A DNA stretch of 64,000 bases from Apiotrichum sp. Y4204 (taxonomy: Eukaryota; Basidiomycota; Tremellomycetes; Trichosporonales; Trichosporonaceae): positions 124,001-188,000 of the forward strand of contig JAMYHL010000051.1 of assembly GCA_025531455.1 (NCBI GenBank), written 5' to 3'. Position 1 is the stretch's first letter. Every line of letters begins with the position of its first letter. Below the pieces are notes generated by a model. It saw nothing but the letters and a program-made list of their open reading frames with translations, was not told the DNA's origin and did not search any database. The position numbers were made by a program, and so were the translations under genes. Below, in pieces: positions 4,781 through 61,418 of this stretch.

Positions 4781-6152
4781 CTACAACGCCGCCACGACCT
4801 CATGGGCAGACTGCACCACGGCCTCGACATACGCCTCGACGTCTTCCGGCGAGTGCGCGAGCGAGAGCGCAATCGTCCCGCGCTGCGCGACCCAGAACCC
4901 CTTTTCGAGTAGGAGGAAGTAGAGCAGCTCGAGCGCGTCCGCCCCCTCCTTGCAGTGCAGCTGGTTGACGGACCCGAGGCCAGTGACGCTGAACGGCGTG
5001 CCGGCCAGCTTGGTGTTGAGCTCTGCGCGCATCACGTCGCCGAGAGTATTGAGCGCATCCAGCGCAGGCTCCGTCAGCACGTCCAGAGCTGCAGCCCCGG
5101 CAGCCATCGTCAGCGGCGCATTGTTGAACGTCCCGCCGTGGGATACCGCGCCCGGACGGCTGCTGTCAAACCTGAGAGTCAGCACCGCCGGATTCCCAAA
5201 TTCCCACTCACATGGACATGATCTCCTTCTTCCCCCCAAAGGCACCAAACGCGAATCCGCCACCAAAGAACTTGCCGAGCGTGGTCATGTCCGGCGTGAT
5301 TCCCAGCAGCTTTTGGCGCCCGCCGGTGGAGAGACGCGCAGTCTGCACCTCGTCAAAGATGAGAACGGTGCCGGTGCGCGTCGCGAGATCACGCAGGCCG
5401 ATGAGGAAGACGGGATCAGCGGGTACCTGGTATAAGATAAGGTCTTTGAATGGTTGCTCGGCCTACTCACGCAGCCGCCAGCACCGAGCATGGGCTCGAC
5501 AATGATCGCGCCGACATCCGGGGTCACGAGCGCAGTGGTTCCCTCGAGGTCGTTGTATGGCGCGACCACAAAGTCCTGGCGTCAGCAGCGCAGGCAGAAA
5601 AACACGTACAAAGGGCGCGCGAAGCACGCTTCCCTTCTCGGCGTGCGGGTCGTCGGGCGTAAAGCCACACAGAAGGGAGCCATGGTACGCGCCACTGAAC
5701 ACGAGGACCTTTTTGCGCTTGGTGTACCGCAGCGCAGCGGCGATAGCGAGAAGATTCGCCTCGGTGCCAGAGTTGGCGAAGCGGATCATGTCAATACTGG
5801 GGAAGCGGGCCACGAGGCCAGCGGCGAACTTTGCCTCGTTGATGGTGTGCCCGCCAAACTGGAGGCCGGCAGCGAGCGCCTCGGAGATGGCAGCATGAAT
5901 GTGTACATGATCCTTCCCGAACAGGCCTGCAGTGTAGTCGGAGAGGAAATCGAGGTAAACGTGTCCGTCGAGATCGGTGATGCGCGCGCCGGTACCGGAA
6001 GCAACAAAGAGGGGAAACGGGCTGGTGGCGAGCGTGGTCCGCGTTCCGCCCCCGGGGAGGGCGGCGGATGCGCTCTCAAAGGCCGCGAGGCTTGCGGGAT
6101 TGCGCTGGGCGTAGCGCGTGCGTGCGTCCTCGATGGCTGTGGAGACGGGCAT
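4781..6152 (-). CDS. Class III aminotransferase, GSA-aminomutase-like
   Basis: Exons 6152-5610, 5575-5471, 5426-5212 and 5171-4781 give 417 residues, normal for the family; introns are 34, 44 and 40 nt. The protein shows the class III PLP fold: [20 protein letters not shown] near the N terminus, the phosphate-binding [32 protein letters not shown], the cofactor-ring aspartate in IFDEVQTAR, and the Schiff-base lysine in [10 protein letters not shown] at about residue 263. The closest family type is glutamate-1-semialdehyde 2,1-aminomutase. Fungi make 5-aminolevulinate by the Shemin route and do not need that reaction for heme, so the physiological substrate is probably another amino ketone or amino acid; this is inference. 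The start is the ATG at 6152, directly before the N-terminal helix. No mitochondrial presequence is apparent. Confidence 0.9.
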
Positions 6153-6579
6153 TGTGGATGGTGATGTTATGAAGGAACAATGGCGAGGATGTGAAAGAGA
6201 TGCGAGCAGTTGTTGTGCTCCAGTTGTGCTCGATGATGCTCGAGAGATGCGGCATTCCGCGTGATAAGAATCCCTCCTTGCGTCATCGGCAGGATCAGCG
6301 GCAGCGATCGGACATGACCGACTGGGCGGTCGAGGAGCTGATAAGGCGCAGCAGTCTCGCCTGCATAGAGAGCGTATGTTGTGCATGCGTAGCAAAAGTA
6401 GATAGAGTAAGAGTATGGATTCCATAACAGGAGGGTGCATGCATGCACGTGAACAAAGAACAGGCGGGTTTGGGGAGCAAACCGGAGGATTCTCATGACA
6501 ATGGTGGTGGCGTTGGTCGGAATCAGGAATCAGAATCGAGAACGAGAGAACAACTGCACTGCTGCCGCGAAGCCTGCTC
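6153..6579. other. Intergenic region between tandem minus-strand genes
   Basis: This contains the aminotransferase promoter and the 3' end of the CPD1-like gene. A palindromic TGCATGCATGCA-type stretch occurs at about 6435-6447. No coding evidence was found. Confidence 0.5.
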
Positions 6580-7153
6580 TCACAGCTTGACGCGGCTGAC
6601 AATCTTCCACTCCTCGGCAGTCCCATTGACCTCGACGACGACAGCCTCCTCCACGTCAATCTGCAGTGGGAACTCGATCCGCTTCGCGGCCTCGGCACAA
6701 AGCTCGCGTTTCCTCTCATCGCCGAGATCGCCATACAGGAGCGAGAGGTGCGGGAAAAAGCTCTCGGGGCGCCAGTCGCACGCGTCCTCTACCGCTGCGC
6801 GGAGCGCGAGCAGCTCCCGTGAAGGGGCGACGGGAGAGAGCACGCACTGGTAGTACCATGTTCCTGGGGCGGGCGGCTCGAGGGTGAGCTTGAGCGGGCC
6901 GGAGGCGGCGCGCTTGAGGGCAGTTTCGAGGTCGGATGCCGAGTTGCGCAGCGCGTTCTTTGGCGCAAGAAGGGTAATGTGCGGCATGAAGCGCGGTGCT
7001 GGGGGTTCGAGGCCTGCGAGGTCGCTGATGAGGGTGCGCAAGGCTGGCTCGGACGCCGCGGAGGGCACGAGCCACAGGCAGTAGCCTTGCATCAGCGTTG
7101 GCGGGAGGCAGAGACGTACCCTTCAGAGCGTAGTCTTGTGCGGTTTTGGACAT
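6580..7153 (-). CDS. CPD1: 2',3'-cyclic-nucleotide 3'-phosphodiesterase (2H family)
   Basis: Two exons (7153-7120 and 7085-6580) separated by a 34-nt intron encode 179 residues. Both HxS/T motifs of the 2H phosphoesterase superfamily are present: HITLLAP at about residue 47 and HLSLLYG at about residue 130. In this family the two histidines form the catalytic centre that opens 2',3'-cyclic phosphate. Yeast Cpd1 and plant CPDase hydrolyse ADP-ribose 1'',2''-cyclic phosphate produced during tRNA splicing, and that role is inferred here. The protein is shorter than yeast Cpd1 (239 residues) but has both half-domains. An internal ATG (MQGYC) could start translation without the first exon; the upstream start is preferred because its splice gives a continuous frame with good GT and AG sites. 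It is divergent to the CCD97-like gene with 196 bp between starts. Confidence 0.87.
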
Positions 7154-10810: not shown

Positions 10811-13239
10811 CTACTTGCCCTTCTTGCCGCCCTTGCCCTTTGCGACCTTGCCCTTGCCCTTCTTGGCGAGGTTGACCTTGACCGGCTTGGCGCGCATGCC
10901 CTCGTGCGTGCCCGCATCGTCGAATGCCGAGCGGCGCTTGCCTCCCTCCTTTTTGCCCTTGCTCTTGCTCTTGCCCTTCTTCGCAGGCGTCTTGGGCATG
11001 CTCTCGGTGATGGGCCGCGGCCGCGCGGCCTTTTTGGCGTTGCGGATCGCCGCGTCGATATTCCGTCCACCCGCAGCGCGCTCCGCCGCCTCCTCGTCAT
11101 TGGCCATCTTGCGCCGCTTCTGTTTCCGCGACAGACCCTCGTACTTGCCCCGCTTCTCCTTCTTCTTCTCCTCCTTTGGCGCCGCCGTCTTGCCAGTCGC
11201 AGTGTGCGCGGCCTTGCCCGCATCTGCGTCGTCAGCTCTTATCCTGTATAGAAAACAATGCTCTGTGCCACTTCCGACACGCTCGACTCACCCTTTGCCG
11301 CCTGCTTCTCCTTCTCGCTCTGGAACCATGTCCTGGCGGGGCGCGCAAAGATCTCCTTTTCGTGCTCGACCATGTTCTGGCCCTTGCGCAGCTCCATGTC
11401 CGCCTGGCGGAGGAGCTTCTCCTCGCGTTCCTCCTTGAGCACGTCGGTGATCTCATCCTTCATCTCCTCGAGCCGCGCCCCCATGGCGGCCACGGCCTCG
11501 GACGGCAGGATACGGTGCCGGATCTGGTCGTCGGGCGCCTGCTTGATCACCGCCTTGAGCATCTTGCGGTCGGCCTCACCGACGAGGGTGATGGAGCGGC
11601 CCTTGCGCCCCGCACGCGCGGTACGTCCCACACGGTGGGTGTACTGCGCCAGCTGGCCCGGCATGTCGTAGTTGATGACCGTCTCCACGCCCTTGATGTC
11701 GAGACCACGCGACGCGAGATCCGTCGCTAGCAGGTAGTCGACCTTGCCGGCCTTGAAGTCGTTGAGCGCGACGAGACGCTGTTCCTGTGTAAGGTTGCCG
11801 TGCAGCTCGGCAGCCTTGAGCCCAGAGAGACCAAAGACGACACGCATCTGGTGCGCGAGCGCCTTGGAGCGGAAGAAGATGATGCACTTTTCGTGTACGG
11901 TGCGCTTACACAGTGCGAGCAGGGAGGGCGAGCGCTGTTCGTCTGCGCGGATGCGGACAAACTCTTGTGTGAGGCCAGCGGCGGTGTTGCGTTTCGGGTC
12001 GACAAAGACGCGCACGGGGCGGTCGAGGGAGAGTTTGACGAGCTCGTCGACACTGTCGCTCATCGTGGCGGAAAACAGCATCGTCTGCCGCCCGCGGGGA
12101 CACTGGCGGATAATCTCCTCGAGCTCATCCGTAAATCCTGCCTCGAGCATGCGGTCCGCCTCGTCAATAACAAGAATGTCGAGGGCGGAGAGGGTGAACG
12201 ACGGCGTGTTCGTCAGGTGGTCGATGAGACGGCCGGGCGTGGCAATGAGCACGTCGGGGAGGGTGCGCAGCGCGTGTGCCTGCGCGTTGAGCGACAGTCC
12301 ACCGACAAGAAGGGCAAAGCGGACGTCCAGCCCGCCGCGCTCGGCGAGGGCCTTGCCGACCTGTTCGCACTGCACGGCGAGTTCACGGGTGGGACAGAGG
12401 ACGAGGACACGGCACGCGTTCCCGCCCCGTCCGCGGTCGCGGTAGCTGAGACGCTCGAGAATGGGGATCATGAAGGCGGCGGTCTTTCCGGAACCGGTGA
12501 CGGCCGAGCCGAGGATGTCGCGGCCGAGGAGCGCCAGCGGGACCGCACGCGACTGGATCGGCGTCGGGGCAGTGAAGCCCAGGGATGTAAGAGCGCGCAA
12601 CATCGCGCGCGAGAGGTTCATCGAGGAAAAGCTTGTGGGAAGGTCGGTCGTTGCCGCAGTCGGGTCGGCGGCAAAGAAGGCGTCCTTGCGGGCCTTCTCG
12701 GCGGCAGTGTCCTCTTCCGAGTCGAGGTCCGAGTCGGAGGCGGCGTCGTCGGCGTCCGAACCCGCGTCGTCGTCCTCATCCTCCTCGTCCTCCTCCTCCT
12801 CGTCTTCATCATCCTCGTCCACGTCCATTCCATCCACAGACCCGTCCTCAAAGGACACATCCACCTCGTCATCACTCGCCTCCTCGTCCTCCTCTTCCTC
12901 CCCCTCCTCATCCTCCTCGTCGCCCTCACTCCCACTCTCCTCGCTTCCACTCTCCTCCTCTCCCTCCTCCCGCGCCCGTTTCCGCTCACGATAAGCGCGC
13001 ACAGCCTTCCCCGTCCGGCGTGCAATAATGTCGTCGACCGTAAACTCGTCTTTGCCCTTCACCTCGTCGCCGCCCCAGAGGTCGAGCGCGGCAGACGCGC
13101 CGAGGTCAAAGCTGAACCCCGGGTCGAGCTCCCCAGCCCCGGAGCCGGAGCCGTTCGCAGCACTCGTGCTGGTCGACGCGATGCGCTCCGCGGGTCCCTC
13201 GTCGTCCGAGTCGATCGTGCCGATAAAGTCGAGCGGCAT
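10811..13239 (-). CDS. DRS1: ATP-dependent RNA helicase DRS1 (DDX27 orthologue)
   Basis: Exons 13239-11292 and 11223-10811 (68-nt intron) encode 786 residues. The N terminus has a very acidic Asp/Glu/Ser tract (about 90-170). The DEAD-box core follows: Q motif GFTAPTPIQ (about 222), motif I AVTGSGKT (about 247), PTRELA, TPGR, DEAD (about 357), SAT (about 388), ATDLASRGLD and HRVGRTARAG (about 533). The tail is Lys-rich, with KKGKSKSKGKK-type runs typical of nucleolar helicases. The order of an acidic N terminus, the core, EKEIFARPARTWFQ and a basic tail matches Drs1/DDX27, which acts in 27S pre-rRNA processing and 60S assembly in the nucleolus. That role is established for the yeast and human proteins and inferred here. 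The start at 13239 begins the conserved DFIGTIDSDDE segment. Confidence 0.95.
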
Positions 13240-15189
13240 GGTGAATAGGTGGATGTGGAAAGATGGATGTCTGAAATCTTTGAAAGCTTTTGCAGTCTTT
13301 GTGTGGTCGAGATCTGGACAGTGGCCACTGAAATTCTGCTCACGTGACCGGAGCCCAGGGGCGGAGAATGCTCAATCTCCGTTGATGATGAGTCCATCTT
13401 CCCACGGTCGCCACCATTGTGCTCACCATCGAAAGTATCGTGCTCGCCATCAAGATCCGTAACTGCTACCTTGACCAACATCATTGCTTCTCCGCTTCTC
13501 TAGAGTTAGTCGCGTGGAGATGTCTTGGGATGTCTCGCAGCGCAAAAGTCAGAAAAGAGGCTATGCATCAAAGCAGTGAAGCGTCACTGTGTCATTGTCT
13601 TATCGTGGGTGTCAACAACACAACAGTCTGTGTGGAGATGACACGCCGGACATCGGAATCGGACACCTGGGGGCAGGATGCTGACTCCCATTCCGATGTG
13701 TGTCGCAAACCAGAAACAAAACATGCATGTCATGTGTTCTACACCTGCTGGCTGTGCTCTGACAGGCACACTATTGTTGTTCATGTCGCCTCTCTTTGCT
13801 GGGGCACAATAGCCCTCGTCTGTCCTCATGTCCGACAGCCATCAGCGAGCACGGACAATAGACGACAGAGCGGTCCGGCGGCCACGAGCACAATTTCAAT
13901 CACCAGAAGGATGCAGTCTGTGAGCCCTTGAGACGTGAGACGTGAGACAGCGTCGAGACATGTGGCAGACCAGTACAGGATTCACGGATTCATGAACGGA
14001 ACTTTGGACCGGATGCAACTTTTGATCCGGATGAACTCTCAAACTCTCTGAACGGGACACCAAGCAGCGGCCAAAGGGCAGTGCTCGTCCCTGTGTGTGT
14101 CGTCTCGTCTCAGCGCACAGCGTCTCAGCTACTGGTCTCGGGGTCTCGGGGCATGAGGGATATGAGGGGATACTCATGTTGGATCCTGCAGGGACCGTCA
14201 CGAGGTTACAAAGCCCCAGAGCAAGACGAAGACGACGCGGCAGTCGCACTGTCGCCAGAGGACACATGTCGCGCTCGGGCCGCGGCGGTCACCGTGAAGA
14301 CGAAGTGGGTTCCGGTGGAGACCGAGGAGCACAGTGGGCAGGTGGCCGGTGGGGGATGGTCTTGGGAGGATTGTGGCTTCCAAGGTGGTCAAACTGTCAA
14401 TAGAGGCCACTGTGCCACTCTCTTCCTGTCGCCATTCGAGACACCGCGTCAGTAGAGCCTCCATCCTCCATCCTTTGGTCGTCAATGGCTCAGCGTCAGA
14501 GTCTGTTAATAGCTCTCTCGAGATGTATGCTCTGCTTCTCGCTCCCAATTGCTAGCACTCACACTCGGCCGCTCGTTATCCGTTCTCTTTGCGCCACACG
14601 CCCGCGCCACAGCCACCGCCACAGGATACTGTATGCAGGATCACTTCTTCACTTGCTCACTTGCTCACTTGCTAACTTGCTCGAGGTCCGGGGGCCGGCG
14701 GACCAACAGGGGCCCAGTGCTGTTCATGTACATGTTCCATGCGGACGCGGAATGGATGCCGAGCAGGGAGCAGCAGCGGTGGGGTGCGGGGGTGTGTGGC
14801 GCAGAGCAACACGATATCCGAGACAAGACGCGGACAGGATCTGGGATGAGAGGATGAGAGAGAATACACGCCGCAGGAACACGGCGAAGGGGTTCTTTGT
14901 CTGTGAGACAGGACCAGACCAGGACAATAGGGTGGTGTTCATCCTGACGTCCTTTGCTCGACATTGAGAGGTGTTGCAAACGAGTGATAAGCACGCACGC
15001 ACGAGCAGTCCTCATACTCGATCCCTAAAGAGTTAGTCGCGACGTCGGACGTCTCTCGACGTCGACACATCTATCCACGACTCGCACTTTAACGACCATG
15101 ACGAGGAGGAACAACGAGTTTAAGAACGACAACGACAAGAGGAACGATCATAGAGACGAACATCAAACAGAAAGCAAAGAACAGCCAGC
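13240..15189. other. Long divergent intergenic region
   Basis: This 1.95-kb region separates DRS1 from the 1,111-residue gene, which diverge. Open frames are short or antisense-like. Minor repeats include ACTTGCTC units near 14645-14680 and AACGACAA-type A-rich repeats near 15100-15180, just before the downstream ATG. It probably holds two promoters and a long 5' UTR. Confidence 0.5.
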
Positions 15190-41533: not shown

Positions 41534-44500
41534 CTACTCGACGGCGGCCCACTCCGCCTCGGGGCCACCCCCCCTCCCACCCATCGGCGTGTAATGTACC
41601 CCACCAGCCGCGCTCGAGTACCGCGCCGCTTCTTCAAGCCACGGGCGGCACGCCTCCCACTTTATCCTTCTCTCCGCGCCAGCAGCGAGCATGTCCGCCA
41701 GCTGGCCGTCCGCCTCGTCTGGCGGCGCGTCGCCCCACGCAAGCACGGCCATCCGCGCGCGGCGCGAGTACCACGCGCAAACAGTTTCTTCTGGAATCAC
41801 CTCGCCGCGCAGCGTCGCCCGGCCCGCGAGCCGCGTCCCGGCCCCAAAACTCGCCCAGCAGCTCCCGCACGCCGGCAGCTCCCGGAAGCCGTACCACGCC
41901 CCGCCCGCGACGGCCATGTGCTCGCGACACGGCGCGAGGGCCGTAAGGACCGCGACGAACGCGTCGAATACCGCAAACACACCCGTTTCCGCAGCGTTGT
42001 TCAGCGTGTCGAGCATTGCTTGGCTCCGGAACTGCCCGATTTGCGGGGAGGGTTCGGCGCTCGGACGCCGGCCAAAGAGACACAGGTCGCATGCCCTACC
42101 CGCCGGCGGGAGCTGCTGTTGGACAAAGAAGCGCGCGGCGCCGTACGGCGCGATGCGGGCGTGCAGGCACTTGTCGCATATGTCCAGGTCGACCGGCGGG
42201 CCGCGAAGTGTGTGGAAGACTGGGGTCTGGGGGTTTTGGCCCTTTGCGGTTGGGAGCCACGGGAGGACGCCGCGCGCACATGCCGCCCACTGCGCAATGT
42301 CGCCGTACTCGAGGACAAGGAGCGTGAGGGTCAGTACCGCGTCGTCAGCCATGGCGCACACTGCGTGTGCGTCCTCCACCAGCTCGAACGCGGGGGCGAA
42401 ACGCGTGTGCGCGAGGTGATCGTGGAAGCACGACTCGCAGATTGTGAGCTGGCCGAGGTCGGGGGCAACTTTTGCGCTGAGAGCACGAAACCGTCCCGCA
42501 GCCGGTTTGGGGCCGGGACACGGCGCGATCGCACTGCGAGAGTACACCTCTGCGAGCCATGTGTCAAACGCGCGCGCGTCCGAGGTCTGATACGGCAAGC
42601 GGCGGGCGAGTGCGCGCGCGCCGAACCCTCCCGCGAGGTCGCAGCTTGCCCGGCCGCCGGGGACCGTATCCAGTGGCGCCCACTCGCGCTCCCACCGCGA
42701 CCCGGCAATGTGGTCCGCGTAGCATGCGCTGCACGCTGTAATTTCGCGCCCGGTGACGCTACGGATCGCCTTGTGCCACTGTCCCGGGTGGACAGCGACA
42801 GTCACCCCTGCGCCAGGACATGCGAGGGCACGACGCGCGACGACGGCGTCAATGACCTTTTGGGCGCTGGCGCCGCTCCGCCTTGCTGCGCGGAGACCAC
42901 GGCGCGCGGCAGGGGACTGGAAAGTACACGCGCCGACCGTCAGCTCCTGTGCGGAAAAGTTCTTCTCCATGACGCTGCCCGCCACGAGCTCACGGTGACA
43001 CGGCGTGCACATGAGGATGGCGGACGAGCGCCCGTTCGCGTGGTACCATGTTTCTGGGGTGGTGACGACGCCGACGGGGCAGAACGAGCGTGGCACCGGC
43101 GGGCCCGCGTCCCGTAAAGGAGGAAGAACGTGTACCCTGTCGAGGTCCGCGGATGCGAGCTCGTCGTCTGTCATGGCCGTCGCGCCGCACTGGTACGCGG
43201 GTGGGGAGTATGCCGGCAGGCCAGAGGAGGTTGAGGGGCCCGCAGCTGCGGACGCGCCAGCAGACGGGGAGCTGGAAGCAGAGGGGGCAGCTGGGCTCGT
43301 TGATGATGTTGTTGAAGGGCCTGCTCCGGGGTCGCGATCGCCAGACGACCTAGGGGGCGGAAGTGGTGGGACACCCGCGGCCCCGCTGGAGGGTCCAGTT
43401 CTCGGTGCGATGCTGTTCCTCGGCGGAGGCTGCGGCGCGCCGTGCGGCGCTCCATTGGGCGCGCCTTGCGGTTGCGGACCGCGGGACACAGGGTTCGGTG
43501 GCGACATGGCGAGCGCCCCCATCTGCGCGGTAAGCGACGGACTCGCGGGGTTGGGAGTTTGATCTGTCCCCGGAGGCGTGGGGAGCGGGGAGCGGCGTGG
43601 AGAGGTCGTGCGCTGCGAAGAGGTCGCCGACTGGGATGTCGGAGCAGCGGCAGCCCCGCTTACCGCAGCCGTGGGACTGAACTGTCTTTGTACTTGTTGG
43701 GGTGACCACTGTTGTGCCGACTGGTGCTTCTGGGGAGACCACGGTCGGTGCTGCTGAGTTTGTTGGGTCTGTTGTGCCTGCTGCTGTTGGGCCTGTTGCT
43801 GCTGTGGGGCCTGCTGCTGTTGAGACTGCTGTGACGGCTGTTGTGCCTGTTGTTGCTGGCTTTGCGTCTGCTGCGTCGGCTGTTGCGGCTTGGCCGGCGG
43901 AGAAAACGGACGCTGACTCTGGGCTTGCTGGAGGACTTGTTGCTGGGCATGCTGAGCCTCCCGGGCCTGCGGGGACTGACGAGGGTATTGAGCTTGTTGC
44001 AGCTGCGGCTGAGTACTCGGCGACCACGGCCTTTGTGTTTGCTGCTGAGGTTCAAGAGTCTGCTGCGACAACCGCCGTTCGCCCTGGTGCAGTTGCGCCT
44101 GTTGTGGTGGCTGTTGTGGATGATGTTGCCGCTGCCACTGCGGCTGCGCCGGCGATGCCACCCGCCCCCCTGCTGGTGGTGAGGATGCCACCTGTAGCGA
44201 AACCTGCATCGAGGCCGGAGTCGAAGCCTGGGCTAGATCCAGAGCCTGGCCCGGAGAGCCCTGCGACGCAGGAGTGTACACCTGCTGTATCACCGGCGCA
44301 TTCTGCATACGGTGCGCCCATGGCGCCTGCGTCCCCTCCTGGAGCGGCTGCGGCGGCTGCGACTGCTGGGGAATGCTCATGGACGCCCACGCGCCCGGCC
44401 CGACGGATTTGGGGCGGGTCGCGTGCGGAATGGCCGGGGGACCGGGCGGGGGAGATGTCGGGAGAGGAGAGAGGTGCTGTGCGACGGGGGGCGGGGAGAG

Positions 44501-46492
44501 GGGCGGCGAGAGGGGCGGCGAGAGGGGAGGAGAGAGGGGTGTCGAGGCGCCCCGCTGCGGAGGAGAGTATGCCGTGAATAAGCCCATTGCGTTCGGGCTC
44601 GGACTTCTGCTTGACGGAATCGCGTTGCGCACCAGGACGGGCGGGGACGGGGACGCGGAAGCTGGGCGCCCGGGTTGAACCTGCTGCTGGTATCCCTGGG
44701 AATGCGGGGGCGATGTCGGGACGTTCGCGATTGGAGCTGGCTGAGGTGATGTCGCTGGCGGGTACACCTGAACTGGAGGATACGCCTGCGCAGGCTGCTG
44801 CCCCGGTCCGCTCGGCGAGATCTGCTGGTACGCTAGCTGCGGCGATTGGCTTGGAGGGGGGTAGGCGTGCTGCTGTGATGGCTGAGAGTATGTCCACAGT
44901 TGCGCCTGAGGGGGGTATCCTGTCGACGGCGCGACCGCCGCCGGCGTCGCTGACCCCTGTTGCGTAACCTGCGCTTGCGGCGCCGACATGATCGTGTATG
45001 GGAAGCCTGACACCGGGGGGCCTGGTTGCTGTTGTTGCTGCTGCTGCTGTCCCTGCTGCTGTTGCTGCTGGTGACTCTGTGCAAGACCGCTTTGTTCAGA
45101 GGAGTACGCGTGTCCCGCCTGCTGCGACTGCTGACTCGACGGCGCGTGCTGCTGTGTCTGAGAATAAGCAAATTGCTGATCATGCTGCAGCGACTGCGTC
45201 TGCTGGTGTGTCGGCTGGTACTGCCCGTGCTGGCCCTGCTGCGGTCCTCCGAGCTGTCCCTCCGGTTGCTGTTGGCCATACTGCCCCCCGAGCTGGAACT
45301 CAGACGGCTGTCCAAACTGAATCTGTTGTCCTTGCGGCTGAGCCGGCAGTTGGCCGAACTGTCCGATGTGGCTTTGCATAGATGGTCCGGCCTGTCCCTG
45401 CTGCTGTCCATACTGTCCGCTGACCTGCGTCGGCTGCACGTACCCAGGGACTTCCCCAGCTGCCACAAGTGCCCCAGCTACCTGGCCCTGCTTCCCGTCC
45501 TGCTTCTGCACGCCACTCAGCCGCCGCCCCGCGCGCCCTACACCCGACATGAGCGCCGAAAGGCGACGCGTGACTGTCGGCGGAGGGGCAAAGACGTGGC
45601 CCGGGAGCGGGTGCTCGGCGTTGGAGGTGTTCCCGGCTTGCGGGGACTGGGCGCTGCTGAAGCTCGGCTGGGAGGCGTGTCCGTACGCGAGCTGCCCCGC
45701 CTGTGCTGGGGTGTGTGCTGGTGCCTGTACGTGTGGTTGTGCTTGTGCGGTGTGCTGCTGTGCGTGGGGCTGTGACGGTGGCGGCTGGTACGTGTGCGGC
45801 TGCTGTGTCGCGTGATATCCGTGCGGCGCGTGCGGGCCTTGGTAGTGGTTCTGATTCACACCGGCCTGGACGTGAGACGGCTGCGAAGCCTGCGCCTGCT
45901 GGTCATACTGGTGAGCCTGCTGTGGATACTCCTGCCGCGAAGGAATTCTCTGCTGCGGCTGCTGTCGTGGCTCCGCGAGGCCAAGCGCAATCTGCACCTG
46001 GAAGGGGCCGGAGGGGATGCGCTGCGCGGGGTCAGGACGCGGGGGGAGCGGCGGGGACGTCGGTGCGGCGTGTGGTGCGGGGGTGTGGGAGGTTGCGGTG
46101 GTTGAAGAGGGGTAGAGTGCTGGTGCTGGTGCTTGAGTCGTGGAATGCGGACACGGCGCAGGCGTAGGAGCGAAGGGGGCTGGGATGAACGCGTGCGGCG
46201 CTGTGGACGCGTACAGTGTTGGCGCGGGGGTGCTCGATGTCGCGTACGGCGTCGTGAACGTCAGCGACTGGGCCGAGTAGCGGCGGCCGTACGCATCCGG
46301 CTGCGACGCGTGCTGTGATGATGGCTGCTGGTAGCTCGACGAGGACGGGTACTGGTATGGAGACGGGGATGGAAGATACGGTTGCTGATACACCTGCTGC
46401 TGTTGCTGCTGTTGTTGTTGTTGCGGGTACGACTGTTGTTGTTGGGGGTACGCGTGGTGCTGCGCGTACCCCTGCCGCTGGTCGTAGGCCAT
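41534..46492 (-). CDS. Glutamine-rich protein with five C-terminal Cys modules
   Basis: A single exon encodes 1,652 residues (start MAYDQRQ at 46492; an in-frame ATG at 46531 adds 13). Residues 1 to about 1,000 are Gln/Pro/Ala/Tyr-rich with several poly-Gln runs, resembling prion-like, phase-separating domains. From about 1,090 to 1,640 the protein changes to a cysteine-containing region with five CxxC pairs at about residues 1162, 1254, 1352, 1439 and 1542, spaced 87-103 apart (CTPCHREL, CSACYADHIAG, CESCFHDHLA, CDKCLHARIA, CGSCWASFG). Each pair is preceded by a Cys 20-40 residues before and followed by one about 30-40 later, so each module could bind one zinc ion. Similar CxxC-repeat proteins occur in other fungi, but I cannot name a characterised family. 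Possible roles (transcription or RNA-granule scaffold) are inferred from composition only. Confidence 0.82.
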   Translation of the reverse strand: MAYDQRQGYAQHHAYPQQQQSYPQQQQQQQQQQVYQQPYLPSPSPYQYPSSSSYQQPSSQHASQPDAYGRRYSAQSLTFTTPYATSSTPAPTLYASTAPHAFIPAPFAPTPAPCPHSTTQAPAPALYPSSTTATSHTPAPHAAPTSPPLPPRPDPAQRIPSGPFQVQIALGLAEPRQQPQQRIPSRQEYPQQAHQYDQQAQASQPSHVQAGVNQNHYQGPHAPHGYHATQQPHTYQPPPSQPHAQQHTAQAQPHVQAPAHTPAQAGQLAYGHASQPSFSSAQSPQAGNTSNAEHPLPGHVFAPPPTVTRRLSALMSGVGRAGRRLSGVQKQDGKQGQVAGALVAAGEVPGYVQPTQVSGQYGQQQGQAGPSMQSHIGQFGQLPAQPQGQQIQFGQPSEFQLGGQYGQQQPEGQLGGPQQGQHGQYQPTHQQTQSLQHDQQFAYSQTQQHAPSSQQSQQAGHAYSSEQSGLAQSHQQQQQQGQQQQQQQQPGPPVSGFPYTIMSAPQAQVTQQGSATPAAVAPSTGYPPQAQLWTYSQPSQQHAYPPPSQSPQLAYQQISPSGPGQQPAQAYPPVQVYPPATSPQPAPIANVPTSPPHSQGYQQQVQPGRPASASPSPPVLVRNAIPSSRSPSPNAMGLFTAYSPPQRGASTPLSPPLSPPLSPPLSPPPVAQHLSPLPTSPPPGPPAIPHATRPKSVGPGAWASMSIPQQSQPPQPLQEGTQAPWAHRMQNAPVIQQVYTPASQGSPGQALDLAQASTPASMQVSLQVASSPPAGGRVASPAQPQWQRQHHPQQPPQQAQLHQGERRLSQQTLEPQQQTQRPWSPSTQPQLQQAQYPRQSPQAREAQHAQQQVLQQAQSQRPFSPPAKPQQPTQQTQSQQQQAQQPSQQSQQQQAPQQQQAQQQQAQQTQQTQQHRPWSPQKHQSAQQWSPQQVQRQFSPTAAVSGAAAAPTSQSATSSQRTTSPRRSPLPTPPGTDQTPNPASPSLTAQMGALAMSPPNPVSRGPQPQGAPNGAPHGAPQPPPRNSIAPRTGPSSGAAGVPPLPPPRSSGDRDPGAGPSTTSSTSPAAPSASSSPSAGASAAAGPSTSSGLPAYSPPAYQCGATAMTDDELASADLDRVHVLPPLRDAGPPVPRSFCPVGVVTTPETWYHANGRSSAILMCTPCHRELVAGSVMEKNFSAQELTVGACTFQSPAARRGLRAARRSGASAQKVIDAVVARRALACPGAGVTVAVHPGQWHKAIRSVTGREITACSACYADHIAGSRWEREWAPLDTVPGGRASCDLAGGFGARALARRLPYQTSDARAFDTWLAEVYSRSAIAPCPGPKPAAGRFRALSAKVAPDLGQLTICESCFHDHLAHTRFAPAFELVEDAHAVCAMADDAVLTLTLLVLEYGDIAQWAACARGVLPWLPTAKGQNPQTPVFHTLRGPPVDLDICDKCLHARIAPYGAARFFVQQQLPPAGRACDLCLFGRRPSAEPSPQIGQFRSQAMLDTLNNAAETGVFAVFDAFVAVLTALAPCREHMAVAGGAWYGFRELPACGSCWASFGAGTRLAGRATLRGEVIPEETVCAWYSRRARMAVLAWGDAPPDEADGQLADMLAAGAERRIKWEACRPWLEEAARYSSAAGGVHYTPMGGRGGGPEAEWAAVE

Positions 46493-46726
46493 CGCGAATG
46501 ATGAATGAAGAGGAGAGAAGAGTTGATCCAAGTGCGAGTTCTCCTCTTCCCCACATAGTCGTGCTCAATCCCATCCCATCCCATAGAGATATCCCATTTC
46601 CATCTGTTGCCCATTGATTCTCTGGATCTTAATTGACTTTGAACATCCGAACACTGCCTTTTGCCCCTCTCCGATTGCTCGGGTCAGGAACAGCCCCTAA
46701 AAGCGCGGATCCACTCCCAAAGGGGG

Positions 46727-50824: not shown

Positions 50825-52171
50825 TCAGAGTCGCCGAAGCCTTGAGTAGACCGGCGCTAAGGCCCGCATTGACAACTCTATCATGATATCCAAAGCTTGG
50901 CAGCGAGACTTGATAGGGCCTTTATTGGTACGGCCCTCCACGCTCGAAACTGTGATCACGTCGTTCTTCTTGTTTCGCTCGAATATGACCCAGCCCTCGA
51001 GGTTTGTAAGAGCTCCCACATAGGCTTTGTGAAAGTACATCTGCGCAACGACCTGAGAGGGTTAATACGTGATCTGACGGCTAAGTTCCTGTATCATCGT
51101 TTCCAAGGGTCTCCCCTACGACTTGCTGTTACTTACCTGTTCCATCATGATTGCTACCCGCTCGCGGCCATCACGATCCTTGGGTTCCTGGCCGTCGAAA
51201 GTGAGAGATGGGAAGGCGACTCTCGTCTTGCTGTCGACGATATCCAGCAGTGTAAATTTCGATGCCTCGTTGACGATTGTGTCCATATGCGTTTCGTTAA
51301 ACACCATTTGCGTCTTGAGCTCCACCACAGCTGAATATTTGCCGACTTGAAGACGAAGGTCGGAGATGGGCGAGGTGCCACCACCTTGGCCTTTCCATGG
51401 AGCGGGCTCACGAATTCTCATAGCGATTCTTAACAGCTCGTTCATCGGCCCTGTTAGAGGGTTGTGGATGAGACTGGCCATGTGTTCCTCGCCATTGATG
51501 ATGCCCTCAGCCGCTTGGTGTTTTATGGCTTTTCCACCGCTCACCAACGTCTGCAGTTTCTTGTAAACGGCTGCGCTGCGGGTTTGAAAGTAACCTTTCT
51601 TGCCGCGATACTTGAAGGTAAACGTGCCTGTCCGAAATTTAAGTCCCTGCGGGAGTTTCGCACGATCCATTGACGCCTTGGAGATTGAAGTTGTTTCCCT
51701 AGATTTACCGGCGTACCGCAAATGAGTGGCCATGTCGAACTTCTTGATGACTGGAAGCAAACTCTTCGGTTTATCCCATTGAGTTTTGAGGTTAGACACG
51801 CCTGGTTTTTGTTTTTGGGGCCGAGGCCTTGCGGTTGATCCCTTTGGCTTCTTCGCTCGTGATGGTCCTTTCGCCTTCGTCTTTTTGCGGCTGGGGACCT
51901 TGACTTTCTTAGCTCGGGGACTCAGGTGGGACACTGAGGCCAACGTGGTGCTTAGATCCCTCGACTGCTGTTGTCGCGACGTGAGATGCAAGTCGTCCTC
52001 CTCCCAAGCGATGACCTGTGATTCGTCTTGATCTCCCGTTCTGTCTGACTGTAACTGGATGAGGGTCGAATTGTACGGAGTGGGCTGGTCAGCTCTGCGA
52101 ACGGGGTCCCGTAAGGGGGCCGCCAAAGCGACAACAAGAACAAGTAAGTTGAGGTAGATGGTCGAGCGCAT
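50825..52171 (-). CDS. Secreted protein with PD-(D/E)XK nuclease-like domain
   Basis: Exons 52171-51137 and 51052-50825 (84-nt intron) give 420 residues. The N terminus (MRSTIYLNLLVLVVALAAP) is a typical signal peptide. A Lys/Arg-rich linker follows at 87-124 (RAKKVKVPSRKKTKAKGPS), resembling a nuclear-localisation or nucleic-acid-binding segment. The C-terminal domain has the arrangement of fungal PD-(D/E)XK-fold proteins: Asp271 in SDLRLQVGKY, the ExK signature VELKT (Glu284, Lys286), then a helix EQVVAQMYFHKAYVG and the strands ALTNLEGWVIFER and DVITVSSV. In fungi such domains are often joined to kinase-like domains. Metal-dependent nuclease activity is an inference. The divergent neighbour at 52871 encodes a kinase-like fold, possibly a split version of that arrangement. 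TTTATA lies 40 bp upstream on the coding strand. Confidence 0.8.
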
Positions 52172-52870
52172 TTGAGATGGTGGTACGAGGGGTCATGCAC
52201 CGAGCAATGGTCGCTATAAATGCTAGACTGATGAACAGCAGTTCCGGCAAGCTGATTGTACTGCACGGTTAAGTTCTTCTGCCGATGGGAATTGCGTCAA
52301 GATAGCATCGCAAAGTGCGAAGTGAAGGGCCACAAAGTGCGAAAGTGAAGAGACGAGAACAACAGCTTTGCCCGTTGTGAAACGATACAAGATGCTGAAA
52401 CCTCCCAAACCAAGCTAGTCCATTTGCTGTGCCCAGTGTTTGTCGGCGCTATCCAATCCCTGGCGCTCCACGTTTTAAGGCTCGAAACCTCCTGATGCTG
52501 CCAGTTGTACAGTAGCAGTGTGACATGTGCAAGTGTGAAGAATGTTCGTTTGAACCCAGAATCTGTACGATCTGTACACTGCTTGCCTTGCCGAGCTTGG
52601 CTCTCCTAGCTGGGCTCCTCGTGTTTGTTCCTGTACACAGCTTACGAGACTTTACGACACCTCCTGCTTTCCGTACCTGGGCACACCTGGAACACCCTCT
52701 GGCCTCTGGATGATTCTAGGATGCTAGGATCCTAGGAACCTTCGATGTTTGTACCGCTCCCGTTGGTTACTCAACTCCTCTTGATCATCTACCGCGCTAC
52801 CACTGCACTTTTACTTCACCCACTTACCGACTGCATTAAGACGCGCATTCACTGGTGCTTTTTGGCCGTA
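52172..52870. other. Shared promoter of the nuclease-like and pseudokinase genes
   Basis: This 699-bp divergent region has two direct copies of CAAAGTGCGAA(A)GTGAAG at about 52310-52350, separated by 5 bp, and a 12-bp palindrome CTAGGATCCTAG near 52729-52740. Both are candidates for regulatory sites. The upstream in-frame ATG at 52745 could add a hydrophobic N terminus to the kinase-like protein. Confidence 0.45.
52310..52350. repeat. Imperfect direct repeat, CAAAGTGCGAA(A)GTGAAG
   Basis: Two copies of a 17-18-bp sequence lie between the divergent nuclease-like and kinase-like genes. They differ by one inserted A. The position suggests a shared regulatory site, but a neutral tandem duplication is equally possible. 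Confidence 0.6.
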
Positions 52871-53812
52871 ATGCCACCATATGCGCTGACAAACCCCATC
52901 GGTCCGCTCCTCGACGCCGACACCATTCGGGTCGTCATCCCCCCCACGTTCAGCAGCACCGAATGGTACTTCACGCCGTGGCCCTATGCACCATCAGTAC
53001 TACTTCACCGCCTGCGACCCATCTCGTTCATGGCACTTCCGGAACCAGTCGATTCGGGGATTCGACAGGTTTCCTATCCGCGTCGAGCCGGTGGTGTTCT
53101 ACCGCCTAGGCCATCACCGATGCCCGAGGCGGACGTGACCTTTGATCCACTGGTCCCCACGGTCGTCCTCACCGAGCACATTGATACCTCCTGCCGCCCG
53201 TACGATGACAGCGAGTTCACGCGCGTCGTCAAGGGCACACCGGCCGAGGTGTACACTGCGAGTTTGGTGCAAGTCGGCGATACTCAGGCGCCCGGCCTTA
53301 TCATCAAGTTACTGGATCTAAGCCACCTGTGCCGTGCGGGCCGCGGTACCTCTCAGGTAGACGCCCTCGAAGCCATCGCGACGGAGGTCAACGCCTTTGA
53401 GATGGCCGAAAGCCTACAGGGTCTCTGCCTGCCCCGCTTTGCAGGGCTGTTCGCATGCGGAGAGGTGTATGCGCTCGTATTGGAGGATGGGGGGCGGGAG
53501 TTTCCGAACAGGCGGAAGATGTGGGACTGGGGTGTTCAGTGCGTATCTTGCAGTTAATAGGCTGACGCCAGTGGTGCGCTGCTACACGCGGTCAAGTCGC
53601 TGCAGAACGTGGGCGTCTACCCATCCATTCTGGCCTGGGACTGGATCCGACGCGGGGACGACCGCCGCCTCAAGATCACTACCCTGTCGGAAGTGGATAC
53701 TGTCGCCTCTGTTGCCCACGATCGCGGTCTTGGAGAGGCAGAGGCGCGCGAGAAACTCGAGCGGGAGAAGTTCAAAGACTGGGGTGATATCACCGGTAGA
53801 CTCTTCAATTGA
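52871..53812 (+). CDS. Degenerate protein kinase-like protein (pseudokinase)
   Basis: Exons 52871-53538 and 53572-53812 (33-nt intron ending CTGACGCCAG) give 302 residues. The order of elements follows a kinase/APH-like fold: a glycine-loop-like VVKGTPAEVYTASL (120-132), a beta-3 LIIKLLD with Lys146, a helix IATEVNAFEMAE with Glu172, a hinge YALVLEDGG (200-208) and a helix GALLHAVKSLQNVGVY. Where active kinases have HxDxxxxN, this protein has GVYPSILAWDW (237-247), and the DFG position reads TLSE (261-264). The catalytic Asp, the Asn and the DFG Asp are all missing, so it is predicted to be catalytically dead, a binding or scaffold module. Similarity to fungal FunK1-type and related small kinases is by pattern only. 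An alternative start at 52745 adds 42 residues with a hydrophobic stretch. It is divergent to the nuclease-like gene. Confidence 0.72.
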
Positions 53813-58005: not shown

Positions 58006-59931
58006 CTACTTCCTCCATCCCCCGCTTCCTCCGCGTCCTCCCCCTCCCCCACGCTTGCCGCTCCACGTCCGGCCGCCAGGCTTGACCGCCGCGCGCGTCT
58101 CCGTCTTGCCGAGCACGTCGCGCAGCTCGCTCGCGTACTTGCTCTGTCCGGCGTGGCTCATGCCAAACACGACTACGCGGCCCGGGCGCCCTGCACGCCC
58201 CGCACGCCCCGCACGGTGCACAAAGTCGAGGACGTTGCGCGGCGGGTCGAGGAGGTATGTCGTCGTAACTGCGGGAGAAAAGTCGAGGCCGCGCGAGAGG
58301 AGCGACGTCGTGACGAGCACGCGAGGCCCGGTGGTGGGTGTCTCGGCATCCGCATCGGTATCCTTCTCCCGCTTGTGCTGCACGAGAAACGCGTCCAGAG
58401 GGCCATTATGTCCCGGCCGCTCGTTGCGGGCAGCCGTCTCGCCCGTCCATGAGAGGCACGGGATGTCGCGCGCCTCGAGGGTACGCGCCATTGCGTCGAC
58501 CTTGCCGACCGAGCCGCAGAACACAACCGCCATCGTGCGTGTCTTACGCTTCGGACTCCCCTCTTTCTCCTGGAGGAGACGTGCCTCCATCGCCTCGTCC
58601 GCGAACACGCGCTTGATCTCGTGGGCGACGTCCGCATGCGCATTACCGCCTTTGCTCCAGGGTACGAAGCGCGTCTCGAGGCTCTTCGGAAGACGGTGCA
58701 GTCCCGGAGAGAGGTGTTGCTCAAAGGGCGCGGAGGATAGCAACGGCTCGTTCTCCGCTGCGCGCAGGAGCGACGGTGGAAGTGTGGCGGTGACGAGAAG
58801 TATGTTGAGCTTGTCGCCCGCTGCCGCGCGGATCCGCTCCATCACCTTGTGCGTTTCGGTTTCAAACGCCGGGCCGAGGAGCACGTCCGCCTCGTCGATG
58901 ATCAGCCACTCGAGGCGGGACAGGTTGAGAATCTCCTCGCGCTCGTACTCGCGCCGCTCTGGTGCTGGCACATGCGCAGACTTCTTGCGGCCCTCGGGCT
59001 CCTCCCGCGGAAGAGCAAGTAGAGACGAGGCGCTGCGCCCCGTCGAAAACAGGATATCCACCGGTCCGAGATTGCGGACCGTGCCCGGCGAGCTGGCGCC
59101 CGCAACGCGGAGCTTCGCGCCGTGGGTGAAGCCCTTCGCGACAAGGGTGCTCTGGCGGGTGAGCTCGTGCGTCGGCGAGAGGACGAGTGCGCGCGGCGCG
59201 ACCTGCCCGTCAAAGCCTCCCTGTCCTGGACCCGTATCGGTGTCCTTCAGATGCTGGATAAGCGGGAGGAGATACGCGAGCGTCTTGCCGCTGCCGGTCT
59301 CGGCGCCAAGGATCGCACGGTGCGGCTCGCCATGCGACGCAAGGAGGTGCTGAAGCGCGAGACTCTGGATCGGCGTCGTCGATCCATTCGGGAAGCACTC
59401 AGCCAGCGTATCCTGTAGCGCGGGGAGGATCTCAAACGCCGAGAACTTGCGCGGCTGCGCAAGCATCACATTCTCCTTTTGGCGGTGTACCGGCTCGGGC
59501 TTGTGTTTCGGCGCCTGGGGCTTGAAGCCGGGCGGAAGGCGCTGCGGGAACTTGGACGTCGGGGTCTTCTTCACCTGCCGGAAATCAGGCGCGAGGCGCT
59601 GCGCCGTCGTCTGTGCCTGCGTCTGCGCCTGCGTGTGCCGCCTGTCACGTCCGTCTCGTCCTTCACGCGCGTCACGTCCATAGCGGCCATTACGCCCATC
59701 GCTTCCGTCGCGTCTATCACGCCCATCACGCCCATCCGGCCCATCTCGCCCATCCGGCCCGCCACGCTCGCGGTTCGGACCCCAGCGCGGGACATCACGC
59801 CGGTCCGGACGCTCCCACCGCCCGCCGTCCCGGAAGGTTTGAGGGGTGCTGCTCAGCGCGCGCACGAGGACCTGCGCAAGCGGGGGGACGACGCGGGCAA
59901 CGCTCGCTGGTGTGGAGCGAAGGCGGAGCAT
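58006..59931 (-). CDS. MRH4: Mitochondrial ATP-dependent RNA helicase MRH4
   Basis: A single exon encodes 641 residues, starting at ATG 59931 (an in-frame ATG at 59991 adds 20 residues). The first residues (MLRLRSTPASVARVVPPLAQ) form an Arg/Ser-rich mitochondrial presequence. A low-complexity RDGRDGRDRR/GRD repeat follows at about 60-100. The helicase core has TTPIQ (about 184), AETGSGKT (about 206), PTHELTRQ, DEAD (about 345), VTAT (motif III variant, about 381), SRGLDF and HRAGRAGRAG (about 571). The segment LPALQDTLAECFPNGS before the Q-motif is typical for Mrh4. Yeast Mrh4 functions in late mitochondrial large-subunit assembly. The C terminus is Gly/Arg-rich. No intron was found. Confidence 0.92.
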   Translation of the reverse strand: MLRLRSTPASVARVVPPLAQVLVRALSSTPQTFRDGGRWERPDRRDVPRWGPNRERGGPDGRDGPDGRDGRDRRDGSDGRNGRYGRDAREGRDGRDRRHTQAQTQAQTTAQRLAPDFRQVKKTPTSKFPQRLPPGFKPQAPKHKPEPVHRQKENVMLAQPRKFSAFEILPALQDTLAECFPNGSTTPIQSLALQHLLASHGEPHRAILGAETGSGKTLAYLLPLIQHLKDTDTGPGQGGFDGQVAPRALVLSPTHELTRQSTLVAKGFTHGAKLRVAGASSPGTVRNLGPVDILFSTGRSASSLLALPREEPEGRKKSAHVPAPERREYEREEILNLSRLEWLIIDEADVLLGPAFETETHKVMERIRAAAGDKLNILLVTATLPPSLLRAAENEPLLSSAPFEQHLSPGLHRLPKSLETRFVPWSKGGNAHADVAHEIKRVFADEAMEARLLQEKEGSPKRKTRTMAVVFCGSVGKVDAMARTLEARDIPCLSWTGETAARNERPGHNGPLDAFLVQHKREKDTDADAETPTTGPRVLVTTSLLSRGLDFSPAVTTTYLLDPPRNVLDFVHRAGRAGRAGRPGRVVVFGMSHAGQSKYASELRDVLGKTETRAAVKPGGRTWSGKRGGGGGRGGSGGWRK

Positions 59932-61418
59932 CGTGTGTGTGTTGAGGTGGTGGTGTCGTAGTGTTTGTGGTGATGGAGATGGCGAGGGCAATGCCGACGG
60001 CGCTTTGTGCTGTTTGCATCAGCGGCCAACTTTTTGAACACTGAAAGGCTAGAATGATGTGTCATTTGCCCAACGGGAGTGATGAAACCTCGCACCGCGC
60101 ACAGGTCTCGCACCAAACTTGCATCTGCGAAAGGCGCCCATAAAACGGCCAGAAATTTCCACCGTTTGCATCCTCTCATCATCTCATCCAGCATCTAGGG
60201 GGTACAACGGAGTGAAACAGTGAGTACAGGCCTGAGATATCTCGGGCGATTCGGCTTGATCGCGTGCACGCGTACGAATGAAGAGCGGGAAACCTTCTTC
60301 CCCAACTGGCACCTCTTGACATAGCCCCCGCGCCCAGAAGGGGCGGGGACGATGCTCTCACTGGACATCTGATATCACGCGCTGCGAGAACTCTTTTTTG
60401 TTTTTAGGGTTGGCGCTGACGATACAGGTGTAATTTCATCCGCTGGGCGCTGAGTGTTGTAGCTTTGGAATGTACTTGTATCGAAGACTCGTGGCTGCTG
60501 GGTGGACCGAGAGGAAGCGGGGAACACGGCTCGACTCTCGCGCGCGGATGCGAGATATGCGGCAGTCAGCATGCGGCAGACCCATGCTCATGTTGAACTT
60601 CTCCATGGGGAGGGCATCTGCTTGGAGTCTTCTGATGCCCATCTGCTCTTGGCTCTGAGGTGGGTCCATTGGGCATCTCCCTCTCCACTGCGAGGAACAA
60701 TGGACCTGGAATATGAGAGCTTTGCACCTGAACCTCGCTCTCAATTGGCACCCGCGCCGGAGCAGCGGTGGACAATGTTCTCAACTGGCCAGCTACTGGG
60801 TCGCGAAAGACTCTGGACAAGTGAAGGAGCTACTGTGACACTGTGATCTGCGCGATGGAACCAGTACCGCATCCGAGTGACTAAGGAGCAGATGGAGATG
60901 AACGACGAAGCGTCTCACGTCCGCGGCGGAACGCTCTACACTCTATGCTGCACGCTCGCCGCTCGACGCCCAATGCTCTGGGTGCACACAGCACAGCAAA
61001 GCTAATATGACTTCATGATAGAAAAGGATACATCCACTATCGACGGCTACTTCCAATGTGAAGGGCGCTGTCAGTCGCTCGTCTTGTCAGTACTCTTGCC
61101 GTCAGTGTTTGCGCAGTCACTCCGATGCAACCCGCTGCTTCGCGTCGGCATTCCACCTCCGCGCGGCAGCCCGCTCCGTAACCCCCTCACCCCTCCTCCC
61201 CTCCCGGTGCCTACATCACCCCACTCCTCGCACTACAAGGCGGACCCAGAAGGGGACACTCACAACCACTCTGCAGGGAGTACTAGTCCAGTGCAGAAAA
61301 GGGAGGTCCCCGTGGTTAGTCTTGTGTGTGTGCACTCCGCGATAGGCCATGAAGTGATATACATCCCCACACACGCCACATGCGGATCGATTGGAAAACC
61401 AACGCGCAGTCTCACCGC
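59932..61418. other. Intergenic region between MRH4 and RPL11
   Basis: This is 1.5 kb without a supported gene. Small open frames on both strands at 60,436-60,850 and 61,015-61,422 lack composition or homology evidence. It contains the MRH4 promoter and the RPL11 terminator region. Confidence 0.5.

Follow-up and report, generated by a model that had tools for sequence, protein, structure and literature searches.

A divergent pair of nuclease-like and kinase-like genes recurs in the genome of Apiotrichum sp. Y4204 as a candidate conflict module

Introduction

Among described systems, the SPOK proteins of Podospora and Fusarium are one of the closest to the gene pair reported here, which lies in a 64,000-nucleotide stretch of DNA (the window) of Apiotrichum sp. 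Y4204. Gene A of the pair encodes a PD-(D/E)XK-like protein that looks secreted, and gene B a kinase-like protein that lacks catalytic residues. In the passages cited from PMC6660238, SPOK joins a PD-(D/E)XK killing domain to a kinase resistance domain, and the best HHpred match of its nuclease domain is HsdR. The accounts of SPOK cited here map killing to the nuclease lysine and resistance to the kinase domain. SPOK also has a Cys/His cluster and is spoken of as nuclear-localised (cited part of PMC9972908), and the manner in which its resistance is conferred is given as not known in the relevant passages of PMC9972908 and PMC12693581. Nuclease and kinase domains occur as well as effector or toxin parts among the Crinkler/CR effectors (cited parts of PMC12693581 and PMC11342252).

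The gene pair of Apiotrichum resembles SPOK in having putative nuclease-type and kinase-type domains and in being multicopy and variable, a comparison made by description and not by sequence. SPOK, however, carries both domains in a single polypeptide and has the kinase catalytic Asp, whereas here the two functions would be divided between two divergent genes, with a catalytically incomplete kinase arm and a signal-like N-terminus on the nuclease arm. The Crinkler/CR effectors, which have a CR header and a partner NTPase or kinase domain in the same protein, may differ in that the Pfam comparison recognised no domain in A or B and that A stands alone with its signal-like start. In the CinA/CinB (CifA/CifB) system of Wolbachia, which is bacterial, CifB has four tandem restriction endonuclease (REase)-fold domains, and CifA is not known to be kinase-like. 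Here we describe the recurrence, the conserved residues and the pattern of loss of the A/B pair, and weigh what it might do.

Results

The A/B pair is a recurring two-gene unit

The genome carrying the window (48.9 Mb, 182 contigs) was searched with three A queries and three B queries, drawn from the window and from divergent members. As a lower bound, it contains at least 19 loci of the A/B module: C130 (the window's own), C1, C57a (531k), C142a (203k), C79, C165, C136, C173, C99, C93, C124, C138, C57b (512k), C142b (177k), C115, C127, C152, C20 and C31. Most of the loci lie on paired contigs with collinear flanks, which are mostly 85-96% identical by blastn in the stretches compared, so that the assembly looks allodiploid or heterozygous diploid. 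Hybrid genomes of the allodiploid kind have been described in Trichosporon (cited part of PMC6642101). The 19 loci collapse to ten modules, namely nine homeolog pairs and C31.

All the A and B matches listed fall in these loci, with both genes or their remnants at each of them except C1, which keeps B without A. Among the matches listed in this genome, A-type genes always had a B-type gene beside them. The B genes at C57:512k and C142:177k were considered as solo genes and rejected as such when a more distant A query found A beside both, which leaves C1 as the sole locus without A. Gene B is cut by a contig end in C20 and C115. In C57a, C142a, C79 and C165 the B-type gene is followed by another one in tandem, of which only a C-terminal part was recovered in C57a. 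For seven of the 19 loci (C136, C20, C115, C79, C142a, C173 and C31), the nearest contig end is no more than about 51 kb away.

Genes A and B are divergent in all 14 loci where both starts could be placed (12/12 anchored loci, plus C57b and C142b), and the distance from the ATG of A to the core of B is 708-1,365 bp in the 12 anchored loci. The search for a third module gene gave no cross-module match among 833 flanking open reading frames (ORFs) of at least 70 amino acids at an expect value (E) of 1e-5, which indicates that in the stretches compared the recurring unit is made of exactly two genes. A first-pass annotation of the window had described the kinase-like gene as starting 700 bp away from its partner in the opposite direction and the two genes as a possible co-regulated two-component module. 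The start codons are indeed divergent and separated by practically that distance (Table 1), and the adjacency of the relatives of both genes at the 19 or more loci is in line with a module; the co-regulated part of the proposal found no support, since no promoter motif stood clearly above shuffled sequences. The best shared motif across eight intergenic regions was a 7-mer present in seven of them, against at most six in the shuffles, which is not clearly above chance.

Gene A keeps the residues of a PD-(D/E)XK active site

Ten A cores were aligned (alignment A1), the other cores being 23-33% identical to that of the window's A. This alignment has ten invariant columns (L112, W124, D136, E149, K151, Q210, T226, W231, L264 and I266). 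The D and the ExK are kept in the 16 A copies that span the region, without exception (15 by script and C57b by eye). As read from the sequence, the invariant D, E-x-K and Q of A are the active-site set of PD-(D/E)XK nucleases. Active CifB REase domains are described with the order E...D...EXK...Q in the cited part of PMC11342252. The motif IV-like Gln of A is mostly found as Q-x3-(Q/E)-M, and most of the HsdR cores compared have Q-x3-Y.

Profile comparisons placed A in the same active-site register as two bacterial systems, type I restriction HsdR and Shedu SduA, at a marginal score in one case and by a weak match in the other. In the best local profile alignment with the HsdR nuclease core, the D of A fell on D and the ExK on ExK with a marginal score of 17.3, which was exceeded by one of 30 column-shuffled nulls (best null 19.5). 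When shorter HsdR fragments ending inside the nuclease core were used, A aligned outside the active site (19.8, versus a best null of 19.2 in 40). The A copy of C152 had as its sole PADLOC matches two models of SduA (DUF4263), which we take to be a PD-(D/E)XK nuclease; both matches were weak (E 0.017 and 0.042) and cover residues 151-176, a segment that includes D158 and E171 of the D...ExK stretch. Since other A members match unrelated PADLOC models equally weakly (JetB, E 0.033; PDC-S05, E 0.04), only the register of the SduA match is suggestive, and the match does not amount to significant homology.

No Pfam match was obtained for A, and no REase was present among its PDB matches. The single-sequence AlphaFold model of A had a predicted local distance difference test score (pLDDT) of 33.6, too low to use. 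With marginal profile matches and an unusable model, the REase assignment of A rests on motif conservation, which supports a provisional placement of the gene in the REase-like PD-(D/E)XK type. The REase-like nature proposed in the first-pass annotation is thus supported by the conservation of the D, ExK and Q residues, with the fold itself still putative and the HsdR match marginal.

The residues D271, E284 and K286, the signal-like N-terminus and the Lys/Arg-rich linker that had been reported together in this gene were all recovered there by coordinates, hydropathy and composition (Table 1). The signal-like stretch of the window's A, defined by hydropathy only, is MRSTIYLNLLVLVVALAA. An MR followed by a hydrophobic stretch opens each of the 15 A copies that have the 5' part, with maximum hydropathy values of 2.07-3.04; the starts of the copies were chosen by eye, and C115 was counted without a modelled splice from the start to the main frame. 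The K/R-rich stretch precedes the core in most A copies and follows it in C57a, C142a, C152 and C20. In nine of the 11 A copies judged intact an intron is located directly after the conserved Q of an (E/Q)Q motif, the remaining two, C152 and C20, having introns elsewhere instead. The QVVAQMYFHKAYVGALTN segment of A straddles the exon junction.

Gene B has kinase-like elements and an incomplete catalytic set

The B family profile gave a weak alignment to the PAK6 kinase (E 0.47) over alphaE, the catalytic loop and DFG. The stretch of the profile containing the VAIK Lys aligns to PAK6 collinearly, as a second stretch with a negative score. Thirteen B cores were aligned (alignment A2), and both the VAIK-type Lys and the alphaC-type Glu are invariant in them (Table 1). 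In the register given by alignment A2 and PAK6, the positions of the HRD Asp, the Asn and the DFG Asp are all non-catalytic in the window's B, in agreement with the first reading of this gene as lacking the HxD Asp, the Asn and the DFG Asp. Inspection of the alignment by eye revealed that the HRD-Asp/Asn/DFG-Asp set is incomplete in each of the 13 rows. Three of them (C57a, C152 and the second of the B copies of C142a) retain an Asp of the HRD type, and one (C136) retains an Asp of the DFG type. The B sequence ends shortly after the DFG position, and most of the C-lobe is therefore missing.

The single-sequence AlphaFold model of B was also too low in confidence to use (pLDDT 33.7). No signal-like stretch was observed in the seven B N-termini tested, several of which are basic. 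The fungal kinase family Pkinase_fungal/FunK1 (PF17667) was not among the matches of the 13 B members at E values up to 10, and a PF17667 search of the genome gave 18 matches, all of them outside the 19 loci.

Gene A is lost preferentially

Gene A is absent or broken in eight of the 19 loci, whereas B is broken in one of the 17 readable loci (Fisher P 0.02). When only loci with a different status of the two genes are considered, there are seven A-only losses and no B-only loss (sign test P 0.016). For these counts, B was scored from its two main exons, and an A gene was called intact when it had an open core and a plausible intron. The toxin-like or effector arm suggested for A in the first-pass annotation would fit this asymmetry between loss of A and retention of B.

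The clearest loss is that of C1, where 1.9 kb including gene A is replaced by about 137 bp between syntenic flanks; this short stretch contains small matches to the A-B intergenic region. The A gene of C79 has stop codons, those of C124, C138 and C127 are fragments, and those of C57a and C93 have frameshifts. The A gene of C142b is probably split, with about 5.8 kb from exon 1 to a possible exon 2 assigned by position (C142:180141-186876), as compared with about 90 bp in C57b. The only broken B gene is that of C138, which has a frameshift.

Divergence between homeologs is uneven in A

Synonymous divergence (Ks, Nei-Gojobori) between homeologous A genes was high in C79/C165 (1.24), C99/C93 (1.17) and C152/C20 (1.11), with values of 0.32 in C57a/C142a, 0.28 in C57b/C142b, 0.11 in C115/C127 and 0.016 in C136/C173. 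The values for B, which cover the same pairs except C152/C20 and two further pairs, were 0.09 in C79/C165, 0.82 in C99/C93, 0.04 in C57a/C142a, 0.125 in both C57b/C142b and C115/C127, 0.027 in C136/C173, 0.13 in C130/C1 and 0.22 in C124/C138. Likely coding ORFs in the flanks had Ks values of about 0.03-0.26 (0.03-0.21 for the three pairs with high A Ks), a rough baseline because these ORFs were picked by a ratio of nonsynonymous to synonymous divergence (Ka/Ks) below 0.35. The Ks of A is thus at least fivefold that of the flanks in three of the seven pairs, modestly above that of its own B in two, and not elevated in the other two. Ka/Ks was below 1 in all pairs, ranging over 0.16-0.59 in A and 0.14-0.42 in B; one copy is broken in some of these pairs. 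The high Ks of A probably stems from old allelic lineages or from replacement of the gene, two sources that look alike in a single genome.

In C115/C127, the ORFs downstream of A are 100% identical (L039, with A on the plus strand, 5341-7001), and A and B differ by several percent, a pattern of loss of heterozygosity or recent conversion.

FastTree trees of A and B were built for nine modules, the C115/C127 module being represented by A from C115 and B from C127. All four sister pairs (C99-C31, C127-C57b, C136-C165 and C142a-C152) are common to the two trees, a result matched by 464 of 200,000 label permutations.

Relatives beyond the genome

A protein database of 5.8 billion sequences was searched with A and the A profile, for which the window's own A was the sole match, and with B, which had none. 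Short patterns detected no relatives of A in viral and prokaryote contigs, and none was found in plasmids (best E 6). The collections searched hold few or no fungi, so this lack of relatives does not imply that the family is restricted. Comparison of A and B with Pfam, NCBIfam and PDB, and of A with PHROGs and PADLOC, returned nothing at usable significance. In the genome itself, PF13588 had no match, while four of 14 controls matched; PF20516 likewise had none, a result that is uninformative because no control matched either. Because A and B belong to no Pfam family at usable significance, modules of this type may be annotated as unrelated hypothetical proteins. Searches of the open-access literature on killer toxins and Trichosporon, SPOK, mycocins, toxin-antidote systems of basidiomycetes, hybrid Trichosporon genomes, CR effectors and divergent nuclease/pseudokinase pairs, at the level of listings and opening lines of abstracts, turned up no account of such a module.

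Features of the locus and surroundings in the window

The coordinates of the features are compiled in Table 1. Elsewhere in the window, an open frame of 1,676 amino acids at 41534-46564 on the minus strand is Gln/Ser/Pro-rich and of low complexity. Two long open frames on the minus strand, at 11239-13371 and 58006-60018, read to us like DEAD-box RNA helicases.

Table 1. Coordinates in the window of genes A and B and of the features discussed in the text (aa, amino acids)
Feature	Position	Strand	Remarks
Gene A, 420 aa, PD-(D/E)XK-like and secreted-looking	50825..52171	-	exons 52171-51137 and 51052-50825; splice model GTAAGT/CAG, phase 0
Signal-peptide-like N-terminus of A, residues ~1-19	52115..52171	-	maximum Kyte-Doolittle value over 12 residues 2.95
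Lys/Arg-rich linker of A, residues 84-137, 37% K+R	51761..51922	-	
Motif D271...E284-x-K286 of A	51314..51361	-	D, E and K invariant in 10/10 rows of alignment A1
Q345 of A, Gln resembling REase motif IV, final codon of exon 1	51137..51139	-	invariant in alignment A1
Intron of A, 84 bp, GTAAGT...CAG	51053..51136	-	splice model
T361...W366 of the GALTNLEGW segment of A	50990..51007	-	T and W invariant in alignment A1
A-B intergenic region, 699 bp between divergent ATGs	52172..52870	.	start-codon coordinates
Gene B, kinase-like without catalytic residues, 302 aa	52871..53812	+	ATG 52871, stop at 53812; 344 aa if ATG 52745
VAIK-type Lys of B	53306..53308	+	K132 of alignment A2 row 1, invariant 13/13
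alphaC-type Glu of B	53384..53386	+	E158 of alignment A2 row 1, invariant 13/13
Intron of B, 33 bp	53539-53571	+	
Stretch holding gene A, missing from C1	50648..52538	.	blastn of window against C1:1457000-1476900; flanks and gene B present in C1

Discussion

We propose that genes A and B constitute one two-component conflict module made of a nuclease effector and a protective pseudokinase, a reading to which we assign a probability of about 0.5. Protein A would be routed to the endoplasmic reticulum and probably secreted and, with its basic linker and PD-(D/E)XK-type active site, would cut nucleic acid in an unprotected cell, for instance of a competing strain, of a fusion partner or of progeny that did not inherit the module. 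Protein B, a catalytically incomplete protein with a putative kinase fold, would reside in the cytosol or the nucleus and protect the producer, most simply by binding of A or of the target of A. A has been lost at some loci and was never seen to stand without B, B persists, and A varies strongly at some of the sites; this combination is what a toxin with a protector would fit best. Tentatively, the module could be a multicopy chromosomal killer-protector system of a fungus, in which the genes for a secreted nuclease toxin and for its pseudokinase immunity partner were duplicated together at some ten sites, are kept at part of these sites as deeply diverged alleles, and lose the toxin and not the protector. 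This more specific version is possible, although we would sooner expect it to need revision than to stand as it is.

Several observations weigh against the conflict module. Of the nine genes called broken, three (A in C57a and in C93, and B in C138) were so called because of frameshifts, which assembly errors could explain; when these are set aside, the count of broken genes is 6/19 loci for A and 0/17 for B. Moreover, the loci are paired by descent, so the losses are not fully independent events, and retention of B alone would also be expected if A were merely dispensable. The Ks of A is not elevated in two of the seven pairs (0.016 and 0.11). The distance matrices of A and B are poorly correlated (Mantel r 0.23, P 0.08; Spearman 0.06, P 0.34), which may be expected near saturation yet also counts against tight co-evolution of the two genes. 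In C79/C165 and C57a/C142a, homeologous B proteins are 93-96% identical and the A proteins 64-72%, so that recognition between A and B is not visibly specific. Finally, in the SPOK accounts cited here resistance needs the kinase catalytic Asp, a residue absent from the window's B. By analogy, the module would work like SPOK at most, and we do not class it as SPOK.

Some of the same data can be read in other ways. The signal-like start of the 15 A copies with a 5' part, set against its absence from the seven B N-termini, would be expected of a secreted effector module in which A targets a host or a microbial competitor, its variation and its presence or absence represent escape from recognition, and B serves inside the cell to regulate or chaperone A and not as an antidote. 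The higher variability of A than of B in several homeolog pairs and the absence of the A gene in C1 are compatible with such an effector; nevertheless, a dedicated regulator or chaperone would not need to be kept where A is lost, as B is, and no host is known. We consider this explanation rather unlikely. The putative signal peptide of A, for its part, argues against an allorecognition system similar to heterokaryon incompatibility, with divergent lineages of A, or sometimes of A and B, held by balancing selection and with unlike combinations killing on fusion. That system would account for A Ks values above 1 in three of the seven pairs within homeologous segments whose remaining sequence is mostly 85-96% identical, and for the divergence of both genes in C99/C93 (Ks 1.17 for A and 0.82 for B). 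B is, however, nearly identical in C79/C165 and C57a/C142a, and the data come from one genome and not from a population. We regard allorecognition as improbable.

The frequent decay of A could also be due to relaxed selection, if A belonged to a dispensable, fast-decaying family of secreted nucleases (with a nutritional role, for example) and its kinase-like neighbour had been co-duplicated. The retention of introns in the copies is what DNA-level duplication of a unit predicts. Against dispensability stand the active-site residues kept in the A copies and the Ka/Ks range of A given above; furthermore, B is intact in 16 of the 17 loci where it could be read, and the searches of the genome turned up neither A nor B as a free-standing gene, all of which calls for more than hitch-hiking. 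This is the account to which we give the least credence.

If the killer-protector interpretation were true, the A/B module would be a fungal analogue of the nuclease bacteriocin/immunity pairs, operating with a two-gene SPOK logic without kinase catalysis, and the theme of nuclease plus kinase would extend to a secreted two-gene format. A naturally split pair that keeps the VAIK Lys and the alphaC Glu without catalysis would make the neutralisation of REase killers by kinase-like domains directly testable.

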